A stretch of DNA of 64,000 nucleotides from Streptomyces umbrinus (GTDB taxonomy: Bacteria > Actinomycetota > Actinomycetes > Streptomycetales > Streptomycetaceae), in contig NZ_JAUSZI010000002.1 of NCBI RefSeq assembly GCF_030817415.1, positions 8,618,001 to 8,682,000 of the forward strand. Direction: 5' to 3'. Below the pieces are notes generated by a model. The model searched no databases and was not told where the DNA came from. It saw nothing but the letters and a program-made list of their open reading frames with translations. The translations under genes and the position numbers were made by a program. Each line of letters starts with the position of its first letter. Positions within the stretch are counted from its first letter, which is position 1. Shown in pieces: positions 1-10,055 of the stretch.

Positions 1-166
1 CCTGCCCCTTGAGCACGAACACGGCTGTGAGCAGCCCGGTGAGCGAGGCCACGAAGTTGCGGTAACCCTCGGCCTGGTGGAGTGCGGCTGCCAGTTGTTG
101 TCCGGAGCCGAACATCTCCTCGATGCGGCGGTCGGCATCGTCCAGCTGAGCACGTGTGTACGTCAT
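1..166 (-). CDS. Membrane protein, N-terminal part (cut by window edge)
   Basis: Only the first 55 codons are inside the window. The protein starts MTYTRAQLDDADRRIEEMF, a polar, probably helical region. A hydrophobic stretch follows (FVASLTGLLTAVFVLKG, about residues 38-54), which reads as a transmembrane helix. The ATG overlaps the stop of the upstream small gene in an ATGA arrangement, so it is translationally coupled and belongs to the same leftward operon as the caspase/Hsp90 gene. A small membrane protein in that position could be an effector or anchor. That is inference; too little is visible to name a family. Confidence 0.6.
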   Translation of the reverse strand, partial: MTYTRAQLDDADRRIEEMFGSGQQLAAALHQAEGYRNFVASLTGLLTAVFVLKGQ

Positions 167-492
167 TGCGAGGCACCGTCCAGCCAGGAGGCGATGGTGA
201 TACGAGCGCCGCAGCCGACCTGAACGCCTTCAGGACGGTCCGTATGCAGGGAGGTGCACTGGCACAGGGTGCTGAAGGGCTGAGGGCCGGGACCCTTGCG
301 ACGGCCGAGGAAACCACCTTTGGGCTGGGTGTATTGGCCGGTCGTGTAGCGCTTGGTCATCACACAGCCGCATTCCGGGCAGGCACCGGTCGCTTCGTGC
401 AGCTCCTTGCCGTTCGAGACACCGTGCGTCCACTGGAAGGCGGCCGGAGCGGTGTGATGCGGGCCCGTGTTGTACGGGTTGAGTGGGCTCAA
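163..492 (-). CDS. Small cysteine-rich protein of the caspase/Hsp90 cluster
   Basis: 109 aa, no family recognised. The middle holds paired cysteines (CPECGC near residue 39, then CQC and GCG about 40 residues later) with a basic stretch between them, which suggests a zinc ribbon or other metal-binding fold. It starts with TTG overlapping the TGA of the preceding gene (TTGA), and its own TGA overlaps the ATG of the next gene (ATGA). All three genes are therefore tightly coupled in one leftward operon. The coupling suggests it is an accessory part of the conflict-type system upstream. The TTG start was chosen because of the overlap. Confidence 0.6.
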   Translation of the reverse strand: MSPLNPYNTGPHHTAPAAFQWTHGVSNGKELHEATGACPECGCVMTKRYTTGQYTQPKGGFLGRRKGPGPQPFSTLCQCTSLHTDRPEGVQVGCGARITIASWLDGASQ

Positions 493-1520
493 CTGGCTTT
501 CTGGCCTTCCTCGGGCTGGAGCTGGAAGAGAGTGGCATACCGTCGCAGGCGCTCGCGTACCTCGGCCTCCGACAGGTCCGTCTCCTCCGAGCAGAGGGCG
601 ATGTGGTCCGCCGTGACGGCTCCGGACAGGGCTGGAGTGCGCCCGGTCAACTGCTCGCTGAGGATGACCACGTCATACCACGTGGGAGTCATCTCGGCTT
701 CGTGCCGCGTGGGTTCGCCGACCTCGACGTTCAGGCCGAGACAGCGGAAGGGGGCGTATCGGTCGTACGTCCGCTTCAGCGTCCACCCGAAACGGCCTGC
801 CACCAGGACCAGTTCGAGAGGGCCGAGTGTGCCGGGGCCCAGCAGCCCGGGATCGAAGGCAGCGAGGTCGAAGCGGTCGGGCTCGAAGTCGGCGAGGGTC
901 TCGGCGTCGGGGCCTGTGAAGTCGCCGGGCAGGGGCGGGGCGCCGATGGCGGTGAAGCGGGAGAGGTGGTGGACCGATTGGGAGAGCGTGCCGCCGTCGG
1001 AGTGGGCGTGTTCGAGGAGGTCCCGGATCGTCAGGCTGCGGAATGCGGGGATTCCCATGATGCCGGATGATCGGTCGAGAAGCGTATGCCGGTCGTAGGC
1101 GCTGCATTGCAGCGAACGGGCCTCTGCCGTCATGTCGGGAAGGTGGAGGGGCAGATGTTTTCTCGCGGCCTTCAACCGGTCCAGGGCCTCGCCCACTCTG
1201 CCGGTCCTGTTGTTGACGAGCGACAGGCAGTAGGCGAGGGACACAGGAGCCGCATCCAGCGCGGAACCCGTGTATCCGTACGGGGGGAGGCCGTCGAGAG
1301 GTGGCGCCGTCGCTTGCCGTATCAGTGCGTCGTGATTCCAGGACGGGGAGGCTGTGAGGAGACCGCAGGCGTCAAGCGCTGTCACGGCTTCCCTGAATTC
1401 CGCGGTACCCCGGGGTGTCTGGTTCCGGTGTTCGTGGAGATAGGCGTCGATCAGTTCCCAGGGCCCGAATGCCTGGTGCGGTTCTGGCCATTCCTCCATG
1501 ACACGGATGTGAGGGGCCAC
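489..1520 (-). pseudogene. 3' fragment of the IS-split caspase/Hsp90 gene (C-terminal repeats)
   Basis: This open frame is the severed C-terminal part of the large gene at 2798-6943. It contains repeat units (hydrophobic helix, short linker, then a PPLPG/PGLPPLP-like turn) of the same kind as the last several hundred residues of the upstream protein, resembling the winged-helix-like modules that follow Hsp90-type ATPase domains in actinobacterial conflict proteins. The reading frame matches exactly: after deleting the IS3 element and one GATG copy, ...YWVI runs straight into RVMEEWPEP. As it stands it could be translated only from a GTG inside the IS inverted repeat (1518-1520) or an ATG at 1497-1499, so an isolated fragment of about 337-343 residues is possible. 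Ends in a TTGA overlap with the next gene. Confidence 0.85.
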
Positions 1521-1536
1521 GTGCTTTCCGGACAGG
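1510..1536 (+). repeat. Left terminal inverted repeat of the IS3 element
   Basis: Begins TGAGGGGCCACG and ends TTTCCGGACAGG. It pairs with 2774-2800, with three consecutive mismatches at positions 13-15. Immediately outside is GATG (1506-1509), the target-site duplication. Confidence 0.92.
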
Positions 1537-1552
1537 CGTCTGACTGTCTATT

Positions 1553-2416
1553 TCACGCGGCGATTCGCAACTTTTCGTACTCGGCGTGGACTTCACGTGG
1601 AGGGCGGTAACCCACCGCCGAGTGGAGGCGTTTGCGATTGTACCAGAATTCAATGTACCGAGTGATGTCCTGCCGGGCAGCCTCTCGGGTCAGGTAAGTG
1701 ACCCGAGATACGCGCTCGTTCTTCAACACGCCGAAGAACGATTCGGCCATGGCATTGTCGAAACAGATCCCGGTACGGCCGGAAGACCTGCGCAGTCCGA
1801 ACCGGTTGAGCGTCTTCCCGAACTCGGCTGACATGTAGTTGCTTCCGCGGTCCGAGTGAAATATCGCTCCCGCCGAGAGGCTTCTGTTCCGTGCCGCGTT
1901 GCGGATCGCCCTGGATATCAGCGAGGTTTGGTAGTGGTCGTCCATCGCGTAACCGATAACTTCCTTCGTGCAGCAGTCGATGACCGTCGCGAGGTACAGC
2001 CAGCCTTCCCCGGTCGTGATGTAGGTGATGTCACCGACGAGCTTTTCGCCAGGCGCATCTGCGGTGAAGTCACGGCCCACCAGATCCGGTACCTGGCCGG
2101 CTGCGGCCTGGGTGAGGCCGAACCTCTTCGGCCTTGGCTGGCAGGGCACCAGGCCCAGTTCACGCATGAGGCAGCGGACCAGCTCCATGCCCGCGGCGAC
2201 GCCCCAGCGATCCAGTTGAGCCTGGATGCGCCGGTGCCCGTAGGTGCTGTCGGATATGTCGAAGGCTTTCTTGATGAGCAGTTTCAATTCTTCGCGCCGC
2301 TGGGCCGTTGCGGATTCCGGGCGGGATCGCCAGTCGTAGTAGCCGGACCTGGACACGCCGAGTCGGCCGCACATGAACTCGACGCTGTAGGCGTACTCCT
2401 CGGTGTCGAGCCGCAT
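1553..2416 (-). CDS. IS3-family transposase OrfB (DDE integrase core)
   Basis: 287 aa from the first internal ATG. The N-terminal third is the HTH_21-like segment (VSRSGYYDWRSRPES). The rest is the rve integrase core with the three catalytic acidic residues in context: GDITYI (first D), HSDRGSNY (second D) and NAMAESFFGVLKNE (E). The open frame continues upstream of the ATG back to an A6G slippery sequence in orfA. The active enzyme is therefore most likely the OrfAB fusion made by -1 frameshifting. No internal stop or lost catalytic residue is seen. Confidence 0.93.
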   Translation of the reverse strand: MRLDTEEYAYSVEFMCGRLGVSRSGYYDWRSRPESATAQRREELKLLIKKAFDISDSTYGHRRIQAQLDRWGVAAGMELVRCLMRELGLVPCQPRPKRFGLTQAAAGQVPDLVGRDFTADAPGEKLVGDITYITTGEGWLYLATVIDCCTKEVIGYAMDDHYQTSLISRAIRNAARNRSLSAGAIFHSDRGSNYMSAEFGKTLNRFGLRRSSGRTGICFDNAMAESFFGVLKNERVSRVTYLTREAARQDITRYIEFWYNRKRLHSAVGYRPPREVHAEYEKLRIAA

Positions 2417-2442
2417 CTCGTCGATGAACTCGTACTTGCTTG

Positions 2443-2733
2443 CTACCGGGGATCCTTCGCGAAGTACGCTGCGGCTTTTTTCAGGAAGGTAACTTCCATC
2501 TCCAGCTCGCGGTTGCGTCGTTCGAGTTCCTTCAGGCGCGCCCGCTCGTTCACCGTCAGTTCCGCATCGGGGGCCGGTTCCTGCTGCTTCTGGTGCTTCT
2601 TCACCCAGCCGCGTAGCGTCTCCGAGTTCAGCTCAAGCTCCCGGGCGACTTCAGAGATCGTCTTGCTCGACCTCAACGCGATCTGGACGGCTTCCTCGCG
2701 GAACTCCGGCGAGTACTTACTGGGTGGCGCCAC
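2443..2733 (-). CDS. IS3-family transposase OrfA (helix-turn-helix and coiled coil)
   Basis: 96 aa. Starts MAPPSKYSPEFREEAVQIAL, the typical HTH_Tnp_1 DNA-binding domain. A leucine/glutamate-rich segment follows (RLKELERRNRELEMEVTFLKK) that should form the coiled coil used for multimerisation. OrfA binds the IS ends and initiates OrfB/OrfAB synthesis. It ends with TAG at 2443-2445, a few codons after the A6G frameshift signal. Confidence 0.93.
   Translation of the reverse strand: MAPPSKYSPEFREEAVQIALRSSKTISEVARELELNSETLRGWVKKHQKQQEPAPDAELTVNERARLKELERRNRELEMEVTFLKKAAAYFAKDPR
2475..2482 (-). promoter_or_regulatory. Programmed -1 frameshift site (A6G) in the IS3 transposase
   Basis: On the minus strand the orfA codons CTG AAA AAA GCC contain A6G. 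Slipping back one base changes GCC to AGC and enters the orfB frame, which is open from here to the orfB stop. This is the standard slippery sequence of IS3-family elements. Confidence 0.85.
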
Positions 2734-2773
2734 TTCTTCCTCGTTTCCTTGTTCAGGACAACCCTATTGGGTA

Positions 2774-2800
2774 CCTGTCCGGAAACTTCGTGGCCCCTCA
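2774..2800 (-). repeat. Right terminal inverted repeat of the IS3 element
   Basis: Reverse complement begins TGAGGGGCCACG and ends TTTCCGGACAGG. Its terminal TGA (2798-2800 on the minus strand) is in frame with the interrupted gene and is the stop codon of the truncated 1,381-residue protein. The second GATG follows at 2801-2804. Confidence 0.92.
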
Positions 2801-5800
2801 GATGACCCAGTACGGCGGGGTCCAGGCGGCGGCTTCCGCGGGAACGGTGGGAACGCGCATGGCGGCGGTGGCGGATGACTCGGCGAGAAGTCTTGCCGCC
2901 TCGCCCAGCGAAATCCTGAGTCGTGAGGAGGCGAGCAGCACCTGCGGGAGGGTCAGGCACCCGTCCACCCACGGATTCCCCGTCGAGGTCCTGACCGCCA
3001 GGAGCATATGTTCGGCCGCTGTCAGAGAGCCGTCGTCACTTGATGACTCCTCATGTTCTCCCCATATGGAGAAGCCAAGGGGGGCCAGACGACGAACGCG
3101 GGCCAGGAGCGCCGCGGCGTCCGGCGAAGAGTTGGCGAAGAGTGTTTCTACGCGGTCCTTGAGATGGGTGATGGAAACCGCGCCGGGACTCCATCTCCTC
3201 GACGGAAGCCAGTCGGAAGCCGCATCGCCGGCCAGCACTCGCGTTTCGTCGAAGGTGAAGCGCTCCGCGGCGAGGGATCCCTCCAGCTCCGGGAGCGGAG
3301 GAAGGCCGGGGTCGAGCCCTTGGAGCCGGCCCAGCAGAGGCAGGCAGTCACCCAAAGGGAGGTCGTACTTTTCGGAGATGATCAACAGTGGTGCATGCAC
3401 CGCGGCACTCTCGTGAGGAGACCCCAGAACATCGCGATATGCGATGTAGAGATCGGCTGTGGCGGGCGTGAGTTCGACAGCGAGCTGGGACCGGATGTCG
3501 GTGGCCGCGGGGACGTACACACCCGTGATGGCATACCGGCGCAGTGCCTTGACCGCGGCTCGCAGGGGCATCCTCGCCAGAGCCGCGGCTTTCACCGCCG
3601 GAGCCCATCCCCAGTCCGGGGACGGGATGCCCACGAAGAGCAGGGCGTCAAGCCCCGTGGCGACGGGATACCCGGGCGGTGAGAACTCGTGATCAGCGAG
3701 TGGGGCATGTTCCAGCCTCGTCATCCGCCACTGACGGAGCAGGTCGTTCTCGTACGGACGGTCCGTTCCCAGCAACTCCAGATCGTGTGTCGAGGACACA
3801 AGCCGGTGGTCCACCGGCAGACAGCCCGTCGTCGTCAACCGCAGTCGCCCGCGCAGAAGACGGACGTCGTTGCCGGCCGGTTCCAGGGTCGCCATCACTT
3901 CCTGGGGGAGGGCGTCGAGCACCGCCACCGCCAGGGGCGGCGCCTCTTCGGCGAGCCGCCACAGCCGCCGCAGCGACACTTCTTTCCACTGGGCCGCGGC
4001 CTTGGGCGCCGCGGCGAGCACCTCCTCCTGCACGGCGTCTTCGTCGAACGACAGGAGGTCGTTGCGGTCCACACTCGGTACCGGCCGGTGTCGTTCCCGG
4101 AGATTGACGACGCATCCGTATGCGCGGGGAGCGTCCTCGATCACCACTCCGTCGAGGAGCAGCTGACCTTCGCCCTGGACGAGCCATACGTCGGTGCCGT
4201 CCGCCTGGACCGCCGGGCCGCGCCAGTCGGCTGCGGCCTTCAGCCTGCCAGGTTTCCAGGACCGGCTCCGGACCTCCCGTGCCGAGTCGTCCTGCGCGTA
4301 CTCCACCGCTGTCACCGCGTAGTCGCTCACCCACAACTGTGACTGGAGGGTCTCCACGAGGGACGGTGGCTGCTCATCCTTGGCCAGGGCGAGGTAGAGC
4401 CGGACCCGGGTGCCGCCGTGGGCGGGTGCGCCCTTGCCCGGGGTGATGCTCAACAGGCCCGAGCCGGACTGGATGTCGGCACGCGAGGCCTGGTCGAGGG
4501 ACTCCCGCAGACCGTAGCGGTTGACCGGGGCGGTGAGGACCACGACCTCCTCGGCGAGCATGAAGTAGCTGAACACGCCGATGCCGAAACGGGAGTTGAG
4601 CGCGATCGGCTTGAGGCCCGCGCGCCGCCACTCGCGTCGTTCCTGCATGAACTCGGGGTCCTGCTCATAGCGTTTTCCCGCACGGGCGAACATCGAGGTG
4701 AGCTTGGTGCGGCTCATCCCCGTGCCGTTGTCCTCGCACTGGATGTAGAGCCGCCCCTTCTCGTCCCAGCCCTGCGTGAAGGCGATCTCACCCTCCCAGC
4801 GTTCCGTGGCAGCCTCGCCCTGGGACCGGCCGTACTGGTCGCGCATGTCCCTCAGCCGACAGGCGTCCAGCGCGTTCTGGTACAGCTCGCGGACGGCGAG
4901 CATCTTGTCGCCGTACAACTGCGCGCCCATCAGCAGGGGGCGGATCTCGTCCTCGGCGAGCCGGAAGCGTTCCAGCGGGACCGTGTACTGCCCCGACTCG
5001 GGCACCAGCTGGCCGGCGGTGACGCGCTCGGGCAGACCGCGCAGCAGCGACGGCGGACTGGAACGCTGCTCCCGCCAGCGGCTGCGGATCGCGGCCACCG
5101 CCGCGTTGGCCCTGCCCGCGAGTTCCTCGACGGCCGCGTGCAGCGCGGGATGCGGGCAGTGGAAGCGGACATCCAGGCCGTACGCGTCAGCGCTGAGGTC
5201 ACCGACGACCGCGAAGTCGAACTCCTCGGACAGCGCCTCGACCACCGTCTGCGGATCGAGCCGTTCGTGCGCTCCGAGGTGGTTGACGAGCACGCTGGAC
5301 ATCCGGCGCGGATCGGCCGACAGCAGCCCCGCCGTCCACAGCAGCTGAGCGAGTTCCTGGCCGCGCCACTTCCCGCCCGGAACCGGGTCGTATCTGCTCC
5401 AGCTGTCGCTGTCGGAGTCGTTGATACGGGGGCGGTCGGCCGGTTCCACGGTCAAGTGGCCCAACACCTGGCGGATCTGGCGGTCGATGAGTCGCAGCGA
5501 CTGCTCCGACGCCCGCCCGGGCGGCAGCGGTTCGGCGGAGTCGGCGATCACGCCGGCCAGCCCGGACAGGAGGGTGTTGACGGACTCGTACCCCCCGGTG
5601 CGCTCCCACAGGGGGTCCCAGTCCGCGATGAAGCGATGGCGCAGCCAGTGCTCGGCGGCATCGGCCTGTGCGACGAGACCGCGTCCCCGCAGGGTCTCCA
5701 GGGTGCCCTGCACCTGTTTGTGGGCCCGGCGCACGTCTTCGACGGCGGCGGCGACCAGCTGTGCGTGTGCGTCTAGGTGCTCGTCGGGCTCGGCTCCGTC

Positions 5801-6943
5801 CGGTCGGCGCCGGTCCAGGACCTGCCGCAGATCCTCCAGAGCGACGGCGGTGATGTCCTCGTACACCAGGGGTGCGGCGAGCAGCACCGCCGTCTCGGCC
5901 GGAGACAGGGGTGCCCGCAGTTCCTTGAGCCGGGCACGCTCGACGAGACCGACGAGCCTGCGCTCGAAGCGGGCCGGATACGTCGGATCCCGCCACGGAT
6001 CGTTCTTGTGCGCGCCCGCACCTCGCAGGTTCCGCCCGACGCGTTCCACCAGTTCCGTGAGACCGGCCTTGACGCGGGCGTGCACCGCCTCGCCGCCCGA
6101 AGTGTGCTCCCACAGCGCGGACTTCGTGACCATCTCGGCCCAGGGGAGCGGCTCCTTGAACCCCTTGCACAGTTCGAGGGTGTCCACGATCCGCCCGTGC
6201 GGGGCGAGATGCTTGACGGTGGGCGGATCGACCGGTTCGTCACCGGCCAGCCGGCGCATCTCCTGCTCGGTGTGCCGCATGACGTCACCGAACGTCGTCG
6301 GCGGACTGTCGGGCGACAGCGCCTGCGCCAGCCCCTGGGCGAACCAGCTGCCGTTCTCCCGGTCGGCGTACGCACGCTGTCCGGGACCACAACTGTAGAA
6401 CCACACCACGTCCTGAGCGGGTGCCCGCACTCCTGTCGAGACCTCCTCGTCCGGCAGGAGGTCCGCCGTCCGGCACGTGTCCAGGCAGATGACTGCGGTG
6501 ACCCCCTTCTTCAGACCGCTCAGTTGCAGTCCCACCGGGTCGGCCCCGAGCAGCGAGTCCATGAGAAGCATGGGGGTCCCGTCGGCGCGTGGATCACCCG
6601 GTTGTGCGTCCGCCGCCAGCAGGAAATCACGGCCGCCCAGCGTCACCCCGTGGCAGGAGATATAGACGAACGCCGTGTCGCCCGGTTCGCACGAGACGAA
6701 GAAACGGTGCAGTTCGCCTTTGAGTCCGTTCTTGCCCAGTTTGAGTTCGGAGACGCGGCCCGCGTGGTGCTCGGTGACCGTGTAGCCGGACAGATCCAGA
6801 GCCTCCGATACGAGCGCGACATCGCGCTCCGCACAGTCCAGCGTGTCGAACTCCTCGCCGAGCAACGGATCGTCGGCCAGGAACGGAGTCGCCGTCACGC
6901 CGATCAGCAGCGCTCGGCGCCGTCCTTGGAACTCACCGTGCAT
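2798..6943 (-). CDS. Caspase-like protease / Hsp90-like ATPase conflict protein, truncated by IS
   Basis: 1,381 aa as it stands. The N-terminal ~240 residues are a caspase-like (peptidase C14) domain: RRALLIGVTATPF opening strand, catalytic His98 in YISCHG and Cys157 in CLDTCR. A helical linker follows to about residue 640. Then comes a GHKL/Hsp90-type ATPase: RELYQNALDA (ATP/Mg Asn, ~687), EDNGTGM (~740) and a glycine-rich FGIGVFSYF loop. The remainder consists of Hsp90-associated and winged-helix-like repeats. Proteins of this layout are known as NTP-dependent conflict or programmed-death systems of multicellular bacteria, where the caspase is the effector and the ATPase the switch. The stop is supplied by the IS inverted repeat; the original protein continued for about 338 more residues (489-1505). 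Whether the truncated protein is active cannot be told. Confidence 0.88.
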   Translation of the reverse strand: MHGEFQGRRRALLIGVTATPFLADDPLLGEEFDTLDCAERDVALVSEALDLSGYTVTEHHAGRVSELKLGKNGLKGELHRFFVSCEPGDTAFVYISCHGVTLGGRDFLLAADAQPGDPRADGTPMLLMDSLLGADPVGLQLSGLKKGVTAVICLDTCRTADLLPDEEVSTGVRAPAQDVVWFYSCGPGQRAYADRENGSWFAQGLAQALSPDSPPTTFGDVMRHTEQEMRRLAGDEPVDPPTVKHLAPHGRIVDTLELCKGFKEPLPWAEMVTKSALWEHTSGGEAVHARVKAGLTELVERVGRNLRGAGAHKNDPWRDPTYPARFERRLVGLVERARLKELRAPLSPAETAVLLAAPLVYEDITAVALEDLRQVLDRRRPDGAEPDEHLDAHAQLVAAAVEDVRRAHKQVQGTLETLRGRGLVAQADAAEHWLRHRFIADWDPLWERTGGYESVNTLLSGLAGVIADSAEPLPPGRASEQSLRLIDRQIRQVLGHLTVEPADRPRINDSDSDSWSRYDPVPGGKWRGQELAQLLWTAGLLSADPRRMSSVLVNHLGAHERLDPQTVVEALSEEFDFAVVGDLSADAYGLDVRFHCPHPALHAAVEELAGRANAAVAAIRSRWREQRSSPPSLLRGLPERVTAGQLVPESGQYTVPLERFRLAEDEIRPLLMGAQLYGDKMLAVRELYQNALDACRLRDMRDQYGRSQGEAATERWEGEIAFTQGWDEKGRLYIQCEDNGTGMSRTKLTSMFARAGKRYEQDPEFMQERREWRRAGLKPIALNSRFGIGVFSYFMLAEEVVVLTAPVNRYGLRESLDQASRADIQSGSGLLSITPGKGAPAHGGTRVRLYLALAKDEQPPSLVETLQSQLWVSDYAVTAVEYAQDDSAREVRSRSWKPGRLKAAADWRGPAVQADGTDVWLVQGEGQLLLDGVVIEDAPRAYGCVVNLRERHRPVPSVDRNDLLSFDEDAVQEEVLAAAPKAAAQWKEVSLRRLWRLAEEAPPLAVAVLDALPQEVMATLEPAGNDVRLLRGRLRLTTTGCLPVDHRLVSSTHDLELLGTDRPYENDLLRQWRMTRLEHAPLADHEFSPPGYPVATGLDALLFVGIPSPDWGWAPAVKAAALARMPLRAAVKALRRYAITGVYVPAATDIRSQLAVELTPATADLYIAYRDVLGSPHESAAVHAPLLIISEKYDLPLGDCLPLLGRLQGLDPGLPPLPELEGSLAAERFTFDETRVLAGDAASDWLPSRRWSPGAVSITHLKDRVETLFANSSPDAAALLARVRRLAPLGFSIWGEHEESSSDDGSLTAAEHMLLAVRTSTGNPWVDGCLTLPQVLLASSRLRISLGEAARLLAESSATAAMRVPTVPAEAAAWTPPYWVI

Positions 6944-7041: not shown

Positions 7042-7878
7042 TCAGCGCACGCGGTACGTCACGCCGTACACCTTCCACTCCAGCGGGGTGCGGAGGTCCA
7101 GGTTGCCGTCGTACAGGAACCTTCGCTGAGCCGTGTCCACGCGGGTCGTGTCGCGTTTTTCGGACTTCATGGTCTCGCGGCGGGTGTCCAGGAAGATGTC
7201 GAGGTAGCTCTGCTCGTCGCCGCCCTCCGCCGGGGTGTCGGCCTCGGCCATGGCGCGCTCGCGGATGCCGTGGAAGCCGGGGTCGCCGGGGCCGTGCATG
7301 ACCATGGCGTCGTAGTAGATGAACTGGCCGAGGGCGCCCAGGCCGTCACTCTTGGCGAGGCGGACCGCCGGGCCGAAGTAGACGCGGTCGCGTTGGGAGT
7401 CCTGGACGCGCTGGAAGGCGTCCTTCTGCGCCTCCTCCTTCCAGGCCTCGGTGAAGCCCGGGTCCAGGCCCTCGTGGGAGTCGGAGCCGTCCACCGCGCG
7501 CAGAGCGGGCAGGTAGCGGGCCAGGGCGTTGTCCGGATGGGACTCGGTGTACAGCTCGACCAGTTTGAGCAGATCGTGCGTGCCGGTCGTGAAGCCGATG
7601 ATCCCGGCGGTGTAGCCACGGCCGTCGCCTATGTCCTCGACGTAGTCGTACTGGGCGCGCCAGTCGAGGCTGGAGTTCTCGGCACTCGACACGATCCGCT
7701 GGGCCAGCTCCTTCATCTTCGGGGAGTCCAGGTCCGCGGCCGACCCGGAGGAGGTCGACGGGGAGGAGCTCCGGGTGTCGGAGGGGCCGTCGTCACCCTT
7801 CTCGCCGGGCACGGCGACGTACACCGTCACCGCGACGAGAGGGACGGCGACGAACATCAGACGGCCAGCGCGTTTCAT
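7042..7878 (-). CDS. csn: Chitosanase, glycoside hydrolase family 46
   Basis: 278 aa from the ATG giving MKRAGRLMFVAVPLVAV, a signal/anchor sequence; an ATG 13 codons upstream is less likely because it lengthens the n-region. After a Ser/Thr-rich spacer the GH46 fold begins. SSAENSSLDWRAQYDYVEDIGDGRGYT carries the catalytic Glu and, about 18 residues later, the catalytic Asp, closely matching Streptomyces sp. N174 chitosanase. The downstream segments GLGALGQFIYYDAMVMHGPG and TRVDTAQRRFL are also family hallmarks. It hydrolyses beta-1,4 links of chitosan outside the cell. It is a single leftward gene upstream of the caspase/Hsp90 gene; I see no functional link. Confidence 0.93.
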   Translation of the reverse strand: MKRAGRLMFVAVPLVAVTVYVAVPGEKGDDGPSDTRSSSPSTSSGSAADLDSPKMKELAQRIVSSAENSSLDWRAQYDYVEDIGDGRGYTAGIIGFTTGTHDLLKLVELYTESHPDNALARYLPALRAVDGSDSHEGLDPGFTEAWKEEAQKDAFQRVQDSQRDRVYFGPAVRLAKSDGLGALGQFIYYDAMVMHGPGDPGFHGIRERAMAEADTPAEGGDEQSYLDIFLDTRRETMKSEKRDTTRVDTAQRRFLYDGNLDLRTPLEWKVYGVTYRVR

Positions 7879-7953
7879 GGGCAAAGAGTACGATCGGCCC
7901 GGAGTGCCGTGCCGCATCGGGTGGAGAAACCAGTGAGCATCGGGGGAGGACCT

Positions 7954-9332: not shown

Positions 9333-10055
9333 ATGGCCGGGATCAGCCTCACCAAGGTCGAGGAGACCGCGCCCGCGCTGGTCAGCCTCTACAAGAGCGC
9401 GGGGGTCTCCCTCACCAAGCACGGACTGAGCGGGCAGCGGGCCGCCGTCTATCTCGTCGTCGACTACTCGGGATCGATGAAGCCGTACTACTCCGACGGC
9501 AGCGTGCAGGCGCTCGCCGACCGTGTGCTCGGTCTGAGCGCGCACTTCGACGACGACGGGACCGTGCCGGTCGTCTTCTTCTCCACGGACGTCGACGCCG
9601 TGACCGACATCGCGCTCGACAGTCACGCGGGGCGTGTGGAGCGGATCGTGGCCGGGCTGGGGCACATGGGCAAGACGAGCTACCACCTCGCGATGGACGC
9701 CGTCATCGACCACTACCTCGACAGTGGCTCCAAGGACCCCGCCCTGGTCGTCTTCCAGACCGACGGCGGCCCGATCAACAAGCTCGCCGCGGAGCGGTAC
9801 CTGTGCAAGGCTGCGAAGCTGCCGTTGTTCTGGCAGTTCATCGGCTTCGGGGACCCGTCCAGCAAGCAGTTCGACTTCCTGCGCCGGCTTGACGACCTGG
9901 CCGTTCCGGGGAAGCGGGTCGTGGACAACGCCGGGTTCTTCCACGCGGGTTCGGATCCCCGCCGGGGTGTCTCCGACGGGGAGCTGTACGACCGGTTGCT
10001 GGGCGAATTCCCACGATGGCTGTCCGCGGCGCGGGCCGCGGGGATCGTCGAGTGA
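9333..10055 (+). CDS. TerF-like von Willebrand A domain protein
   Basis: 240 aa, essentially a single vWA domain of the kind found with tellurium-resistance/stress (Ter) genes. The MIDAS motif DYSGSM (D44, S46, S48) and a later QTDGGP acidic turn should bind a divalent metal. It is predicted to be cytosolic. The N-terminal ISLTKVEETAPALVSLYKSA segment is shared with TerF-type proteins. The start follows GGAAGGAG about 7 nt upstream. No terD/terZ genes are next to it; it is the last gene of the 7954-10055 rightward group. Likely role is metal-dependent protein interaction or scaffolding; the partner is unknown. Confidence 0.88.
   Translation: MAGISLTKVEETAPALVSLYKSAGVSLTKHGLSGQRAAVYLVVDYSGSMKPYYSDGSVQALADRVLGLSAHFDDDGTVPVVFFSTDVDAVTDIALDSHAGRVERIVAGLGHMGKTSYHLAMDAVIDHYLDSGSKDPALVVFQTDGGPINKLAAERYLCKAAKLPLFWQFIGFGDPSSKQFDFLRRLDDLAVPGKRVVDNAGFFHAGSDPRRGVSDGELYDRLLGEFPRWLSAARAAGIVE

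Follow-up and report, generated by a model that had tools for sequence, protein, structure and literature searches.

In actinobacteria, the two-gene EACC1 systems link a membrane protein to a caspase-headed protein; according to Kaur et al. (2020, eLife 52696) they are membrane-associated conflict systems, for which membrane sensing and proteolysis have been proposed. Genes of another kind, which encode caspase/iHD-CE/HATPase/winged helix-turn-helix (wHTH) proteins (PF24401, PF24410), are linked to genes of the Pepco type (PF24393), and their ATPase invites comparison with the Hsp90/HtpG chaperones. Here we analyze a 64,000-nucleotide stretch of the Streptomyces umbrinus genome (the window; contig NZ_JAUSZI010000002.1, positions 8,618,001 to 8,682,000), in which gene A, whose product is a protein of this second kind, is split by an IS3-family insertion sequence (IS) and is followed by two small genes, B and C. 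Our best explanation of the whole, to which we assign a probability of about 0.5, is that a recent IS insertion broke A within an A-B-C unit where B and C would act as keepers and A as the effector.

The resemblance to EACC1 lies in the link between a membrane protein and a caspase-headed protein. According to the same paper, the EACC1 membrane protein is encoded by the 5' gene and has a single transmembrane helix, whereas C is the 3' gene and its product has two strongly hydrophobic stretches (around residues 63-95 and 117-148). Protein A furthermore contains an Hsp90-type ATPase and scores 27.4 bits with the EACC1-caspase model (cut-off 140). The position of the partner gene, the two hydrophobic stretches, the low caspase score and the lack of any Pfam or NCBIfam match for C led us to reject EACC1 membership; neither 'Hsp90' nor 'HD-CE' occurs in the main texts of Kaur et al. 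2020 and 2021. With Hsp90/HtpG chaperones A shares the ATP-binding motifs and the fold of the N-terminal domain, probably together with part of the middle domain, but the full HtpG model reaches 36.5 bits against a cut-off of 371, matching in its N-terminal part only, and in A this region is embedded between a protease and helix-turn-helix (HTH) repeats.

The IS3-family element within gene A

Gene A now exists as two fragments on either side of the element (Table 1). Both are open on the same strand, the reading register agrees across the insert by arithmetic, and the 5' fragment runs right up to the edge of the element, where the first three element bases provide its TGA stop. Together the fragments comprise 1,381 + 338 = 1,719 codons; the homologues P0003 and P0002 have 1,719 and 1,720 amino acids. 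The first-pass annotation, which proposed a single gene of about 1,719 codons broken by a recent IS and restorable without a change of frame, is strongly supported by the anatomy of the element, its identical copies and the abutting of the two pieces in homologues.

A homologue search with the 5' fragment protein, in which scoring was confined to the 7,992 candidates with the most words in common, produced 302 proteins at E <= 0.001, of which 120 are listed. The 3' fragment is also matched by 118 of these 120, the exceptions being the window's own protein and an 858-aa piece (P0014), so that the uninterrupted homologue of about 1,700 residues sought by the first-pass annotation was found many times. 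The 118 proteins are 1,466 to 1,783 aa long. In 117 of them the 3' match adjoins the 5' match to within 8 residues, and in P0080 the two appear to overlap by 80, as the 5' match stops early. No residue separates the two matches in either of the closest listed proteins, P0002 from S. phaeochromogenes (90% and 82% identity to the 5' and 3' fragments) and P0003 from Streptomyces sp. NBC_00878 (89% and 81%). At the DNA level, the matches to both fragments extend to the junction in 17 of 61 loci with B and C, with leftovers of -39 to +12 nt; the leftover is 0 nt in L046, L047, L052, L156 and L157, the last two having both pieces directly joined in a single frame, and the frame changes in L054. Relatives encoding the two parts as separate genes, which the first-pass annotation had named as the contrary observation, are absent among the 120 listed homologues, and an origin from two separate ancestral genes was rejected on the 118 that join both parts. 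Gene A is therefore strongly supported as a single ancestral gene that was split by the IS.

The element itself has the features of IS3-family insertion sequences, namely OrfA and OrfB, an rve integrase core, inverted ends and a short target duplication, with nothing unusual for the family. OrfB scores 296 bits with the NCBIfam model transpos_IS3 (cut-off 160), which identifies it as an IS3 transposase, and the A6G heptamer in the OrfA/OrfB overlap is a candidate for the frameshift signal of the family. The coordinates given by the first-pass annotation hold; its 27-bp inverted repeats are alike at 24 positions, with a 3-nt mismatch block in mid-repeat. The S. umbrinus genome (12.4 Mb, 3 contigs) contains six copies of the element, and the five others show 0 mismatches to the window copy across 1,291 bp. 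Plasmid relatives of 79-93% identity are found in Streptomyces and Embleya (10 listed of 18 matching records), and the ends of the element are confirmed by nine of these ten, which align from base 1 to base 1291.

Target duplications of 3-4 bp are usual for the IS3 family. The GATG duplication is present as reported before, its 4 bp being the value of this copy only, since four of the five other copies have 3 bp. No clear duplication is seen at the remaining copy (L041:805-2095), perhaps as a result of recombination between copies. The identity of the six copies, the intact duplication and the lack of further stops in either fragment closely indicate that the insertion into A is recent.

Table 1. 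Features of the gene A locus (positions in the window)
Feature	Position	Strand	Remarks
IS3-family element	1510..2800	-	1,291 bp; one of six identical genomic copies
IS end, 27 bp	1510..1536	none	24/27 positions match the other end
IS end, 27 bp	2774..2800	none	
Target-site duplicate GATG	1506..1509		
Target-site duplicate GATG	2801..2804		
Transposase OrfA	2443..2733	-	HTH_Tnp_1 (Pfam)
Transposase OrfB	1553..2416	-	rve integrase core (Pfam); open frame extends back to 2632
A6G heptamer	2475..2481	-	inside OrfA/OrfB overlap, in phase for -1 frameshifting
Gene A 5' fragment	2801..6943	-	1,381 codons: caspase, iHD-CE, Hsp90-type ATPase, first HTH-like repeats; stop at 2798-2800 from IS end
Gene A 3' fragment	489..1505	-	338 codons plus stop; tandem winged-HTH-like repeats
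Caspase domain Peptidase_C14	6254..6922	-	residues 8-230; Pfam 56.8 bits, cut-off 21.4
iHD-CE domain PF24401	5000..6142	-	residues 268-648; 213.7 bits, cut-off 27
Hsp90-type N-terminal ATPase	4373..4939	-	about residues 669-857
Weak winged-HTH repeat PF24410, 5' fragment	2879..3004	-	19.7 bits, below cut-off 23
Gene B	163..492	-	about 109 aa, metal-binding; CPxC ... CxCxxxH ... GCG invariant 62/62; putative TTG start at 492
Gene C	1..166	-	148-aa predicted membrane protein; runs off window start; whole gene L039 11720-12166

Gene A heads a conserved unit with B and C

The first-pass annotation overlooked that A heads a conserved unit of three overlapping genes, A-B-C, which we found by neighbourhood comparison of 84 loci and profile searches. 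A and B overlap by 4 bp, provided that B starts at the TTG at 492, as do B and C. Both B and C accompany A, always as a pair, in 57 of the 80 named loci, downstream and in A's direction in 55 and divergently on A's other side in two Actinoplanes loci (L092, L105); the pair is also present in the window and in L156 (G349), L157 (G104), L158 (G124) and L160 (G374). Pairwise distances among A, B and C correlate at r = 0.81-0.89, compared with 0.69-0.72 between A or B and the neighbouring gltD/gltB (21 loci); gltD and gltB adjoin the unit in all 21, the window included. Nine residues of B are invariant in 62 of 62 proteins: Cys37, Pro38, Cys40, Cys76, Cys78, His82, Gly92, Cys93 and Gly94. The window B and C and a few homologues have no Pfam, NCBIfam or PADLOC model match, so that membership in known families was rejected for both. 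PADLOC 2.0.0 likewise found no defence-model match for the two A fragments, P0002, P0003 or the window B and C, and one C homologue gave a chance-level match (E 0.51).

Two further genes lie upstream of A in the window. A vWA-TerF-like gene (9333-10055) recurs in L156-L158 and, of the 17 named loci with gltBD, in 11; between it and A stands a GH46 chitosanase gene (7042-7917), for which no membership of the unit was seen.

The Pepco-linked genes (L086, L087, L102 and others) encode the same kind of protein as A, in a similar length class, and differ in their neighbours. A Pepco-like gene stands directly upstream of A in 16 of the 80 named loci, cyanobacteria, a planctomycete and an archaeal assembly among them (for example L086:8297-8599; the Pfam model was applied to the L086 protein only, and the other calls come from a profile of its relatives). 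None of the examined loci has both Pepco and B-C, and the window locus has no Pepco-like match. In a tree of the Hsp90 region with 84 tips (61 with B-C, 16 with Pepco, 7 with neither), a branch with support 1.0 sets all 61 B-C loci, together with three others, apart from the Pepco group. Contig ends cut short two of the three, L048 and L075. This leaves L114 as the single untruncated A of the B-C clade that lacks an adjoining pair; its strain, S. wedmorensis NRRL 3426, also carries L054, another copy of A, which has B-C. Behind Pepco in L100 (9995-12391) an A-like gene matches from about iHD-CE onward, apparently without the caspase domain.

Domains of protein A and a proposed working of the unit

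The catalytic pair of the C14 caspases, His98 and Cys157, is kept in all 118 aligned proteins that cover it, and a sequence profile from A gives weak PDB matches to MALT1 and caspase-7 (E 0.0006 to 0.006). Gene A contains the only match in the genome to iHD-CE, a name that denotes an inactive HD domain. The Hsp90-type ATPase is indicated by NCBIfam models, below their cut-offs, and by PDB matches; Glu686, Asn690, Asp738, Gly740, Gly742, Gly787 and Gly789 are kept in 119 of 119 proteins. A structural model of residues 641-1381, built with 37 homologous stretches, has a mean predicted local distance difference test score (pLDDT) of 82.9, and its fold search returned Hsp90/TRAP1 first (best E 1.2e-12, about 420 columns). 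The 3' fragment matches PF24410 (wHTH-HSP90_Na-assoc) in two stretches with 60.2 bits, and its model (40 stretches, mean pLDDT 89.3) consists of repeated helix-turn-helix units. The same repeat type was claimed for both fragments before; this is supported, weakly for the 5' side, where PF24410 stays below its cut-off and a single-repeat profile from the 3' fragment finds weak partners.

These features suggest how the unit might work. Intact A, with 1,719 residues, combines a caspase protease, iHD-CE, an Hsp90-type ATPase clamp and, as its tail, winged-HTH-like repeats. The B-C pair would hold A at the membrane, presumably through C as anchor, and keep it off until the HTH tail senses a trigger; ATP-driven closing of the clamp would then bring caspase domains together, and the assembled caspases might cut cell proteins and so stop or kill the infected or damaged hypha. 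Such a keeper-plus-effector working would fit both the anatomy of the unit and the one-sided pattern of loss described below. In a more general form, we tentatively propose, with the odds somewhat against it, an undescribed actinobacterial system where an Hsp90-type clamp switches a fused caspase that is restrained at the membrane by a metal-binding/membrane pair, and where A is lost or broken first, B-C stays, and an A of this clade is rarely alone.

In S. umbrinus, the insertion leaves the caspase, iHD-CE and ATPase in frame, severs most of the HTH tail and places B and C behind the transposon. Since most of the tail is removed and the insertion lies upstream of B and C, the A-B-C unit is most likely dead in this strain.

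Loss of A among relatives and rival explanations

The first-pass annotation regarded loss through a recent IS insertion as expected for a costly death-type system. In a survey of 392 genomes of the genus (thresholds E <= 1e-60 for A and E <= 1e-6 for C), A was found in 39, C in 38 and both in 33. C without A occurs in five genomes (G041, G082, G223, G248, G306), in all of which B adjoins C; the A search scored two candidates per genome, and a weaker A in these five is possible. That C invariably accompanies A is rejected, since five of the 38 C-bearing genomes lack a found A. Seven whole A proteins searched against the 12 kb around each orphan pair gave nothing at E <= 1e-6, and 119 A proteins gave only short matches there (E 0.003 or worse).

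The gene order in G041 is vWA-TerF gene, B, C, gltD, and the gap between the vWA gene and B is about 150 bp, as against about 5.3 kb in L045 and L047. This pair (L165:8080-9725), standing without A between the vWA-TerF-like gene and gltD, has the appearance of a near-empty A slot. When the A proteins were reduced to their first 120 residues and searched against G248, a stretch resembling A residues 1-33 was found that begins about 190 bp before B and lies on its strand; the match has 55% identity with P0112 (E 1.5e-4) and 45% over 62 columns with P0104 (E 6.5e-5), modest values for 119 queries. This stretch (L167:3277-3450) is likely to be the scar of an internal deletion of A. In G306 the orphan pair (L169:3643-5646) adjoins a gene for an EF-G-like GTPase, and a similar pair in G223 (L168) adjoins a 242-aa open reading frame (ORF).

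Since five B-C pairs are orphans, one with a near-empty slot and one with an apparent remnant, A can go while B-C stays, and the idea of a costly system is therefore partly supported. A keeper-plus-effector arrangement would predict such one-sided loss, with orphan pairs in five genomes and, on the other side, L114 as the one untruncated A without the pair, in a strain whose second A has B-C. The homologue from Leptolyngbya sp. PCC 7375 is split, within its iHD-CE part, by an unrelated IS (L119:11156-12670) that has an antisense IS4-type transposase, 12-bp direct repeats and inverted ends. In three of the 17 named gltBD loci (L049, L054, L058) A carries a frameshift, whereas gltB is a whole single match in all 17 (one-sided Fisher p = 0.11); with the window, itself selected for being broken, A is broken in 4 of 18 against 0 of 18 for gltB (p = 0.05). 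L160 (G374) was excluded from this comparison because its gltB is also broken over several frames and the assembly is error-rich. Among the 80 named loci, L091, L099, L100, L111, L121 and L123 have shorter open frames.

Several observations weigh against the explanation that we prefer. Frameshifts in L049, L054, L058 and L106 were rejected as proven decay, since these are draft assemblies and the breaks may be assembly errors; the identity of the intact P0037 to L049 (92-94%) and of the intact P0105 to L054 (71-82%) is too low to confirm or refute such errors. Open frames of at least 1,550 aa are found in 39 of 41 other A copies of the 392-genome survey and in 30 of 30 of a 394-genome sample (six genomes in common), which speaks against a cost; of the two short copies, one (G102) sits at a contig end and the other (G374) belongs to an incomplete, error-rich assembly. 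The insertion alone shows no cost either, and we regard the cost argument as plausible and not proven. Six genomes have A only (G097, G139, G192, G300, G307, G364; E 9e-81 to 5e-64, 32-41% identity), and as they are off the tree, A without B-C may be commoner than the one case seen there. The C matches in G223 and G306 are distant (E 5e-9 and 2e-8), the B match in G082 is spread over two frames, and orphan pairs could, as this last case suggests, be mere decaying relics. C is a membrane protein as predicted from hydropathy, the HTH tail had no PDB match at E <= 0.001 when its fold was searched, and the literature searched contained no experiments on any member of the A family.

A neutral insertion, in which A is a non-essential accessory gene of 5 kb that is sometimes hit by an active IS and neither cost nor death is implied, has in our judgement only slightly less than an even chance. 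It agrees with the patchy occurrence of A (39 of 392 and 29 of 394 genomes, in overlapping samples), with the presence of the element at five other places in the genome and with the mostly open copies elsewhere, whereas the 5 of 38 genomes that keep B-C with no A found and the unrelated IS in the Leptolyngbya homologue hint at preferential loss of A. We consider it unlikely that B-C is an activating membrane sensor and not a keeper, with orphan pairs serving another partner. The neighbours of the orphan pairs do vary, comprising an alpha/beta hydrolase gene (L167), the EF-G-like gene (L169) and the ORF of L168, but since they differ from one orphan to the next no fixed partner is apparent, and in L167 the likely A remnant lies between the hydrolase gene and B.

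The truncated A might also still work or be deregulated, the insertion being an adaptive regulatory change that leaves caspase, iHD-CE and ATPase active. Such an outcome seems quite improbable to us: the enzymatic domains are in frame with a clean stop at the end of the element and the 5' piece has no further stop or frameshift, but recency by itself accounts for this lack of damage, the severed tail holds well-conserved columns, and 0 of the 118 other listed homologues that match the 3' fragment end at this point. A recent break of A in a keeper-plus-effector unit stays our preferred explanation.

Insertion of an IS into a large accessory gene is ordinary, and A is of a known kind, since Pfam models already cover its architecture. 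As far as our searches could see, the A-B-C unit is undescribed, as are its exclusion of Pepco and the orphan pairs: full-text searches, with subscription papers mostly outside their coverage, returned no description of a caspase/iHD-CE/Hsp90 system or of B-C. With caspase and Hsp90-type ATPase in one bacterial protein, A provides a testable connection between a chaperone clamp and regulated proteolysis, two subjects that are otherwise paired in discussions of eukaryotic cell death, and the conserved, unnamed B and C make up a defined unit for testing. Finally, the recent split of A together with the B-C orphans raises the question whether a costly effector drives the loss of such systems.

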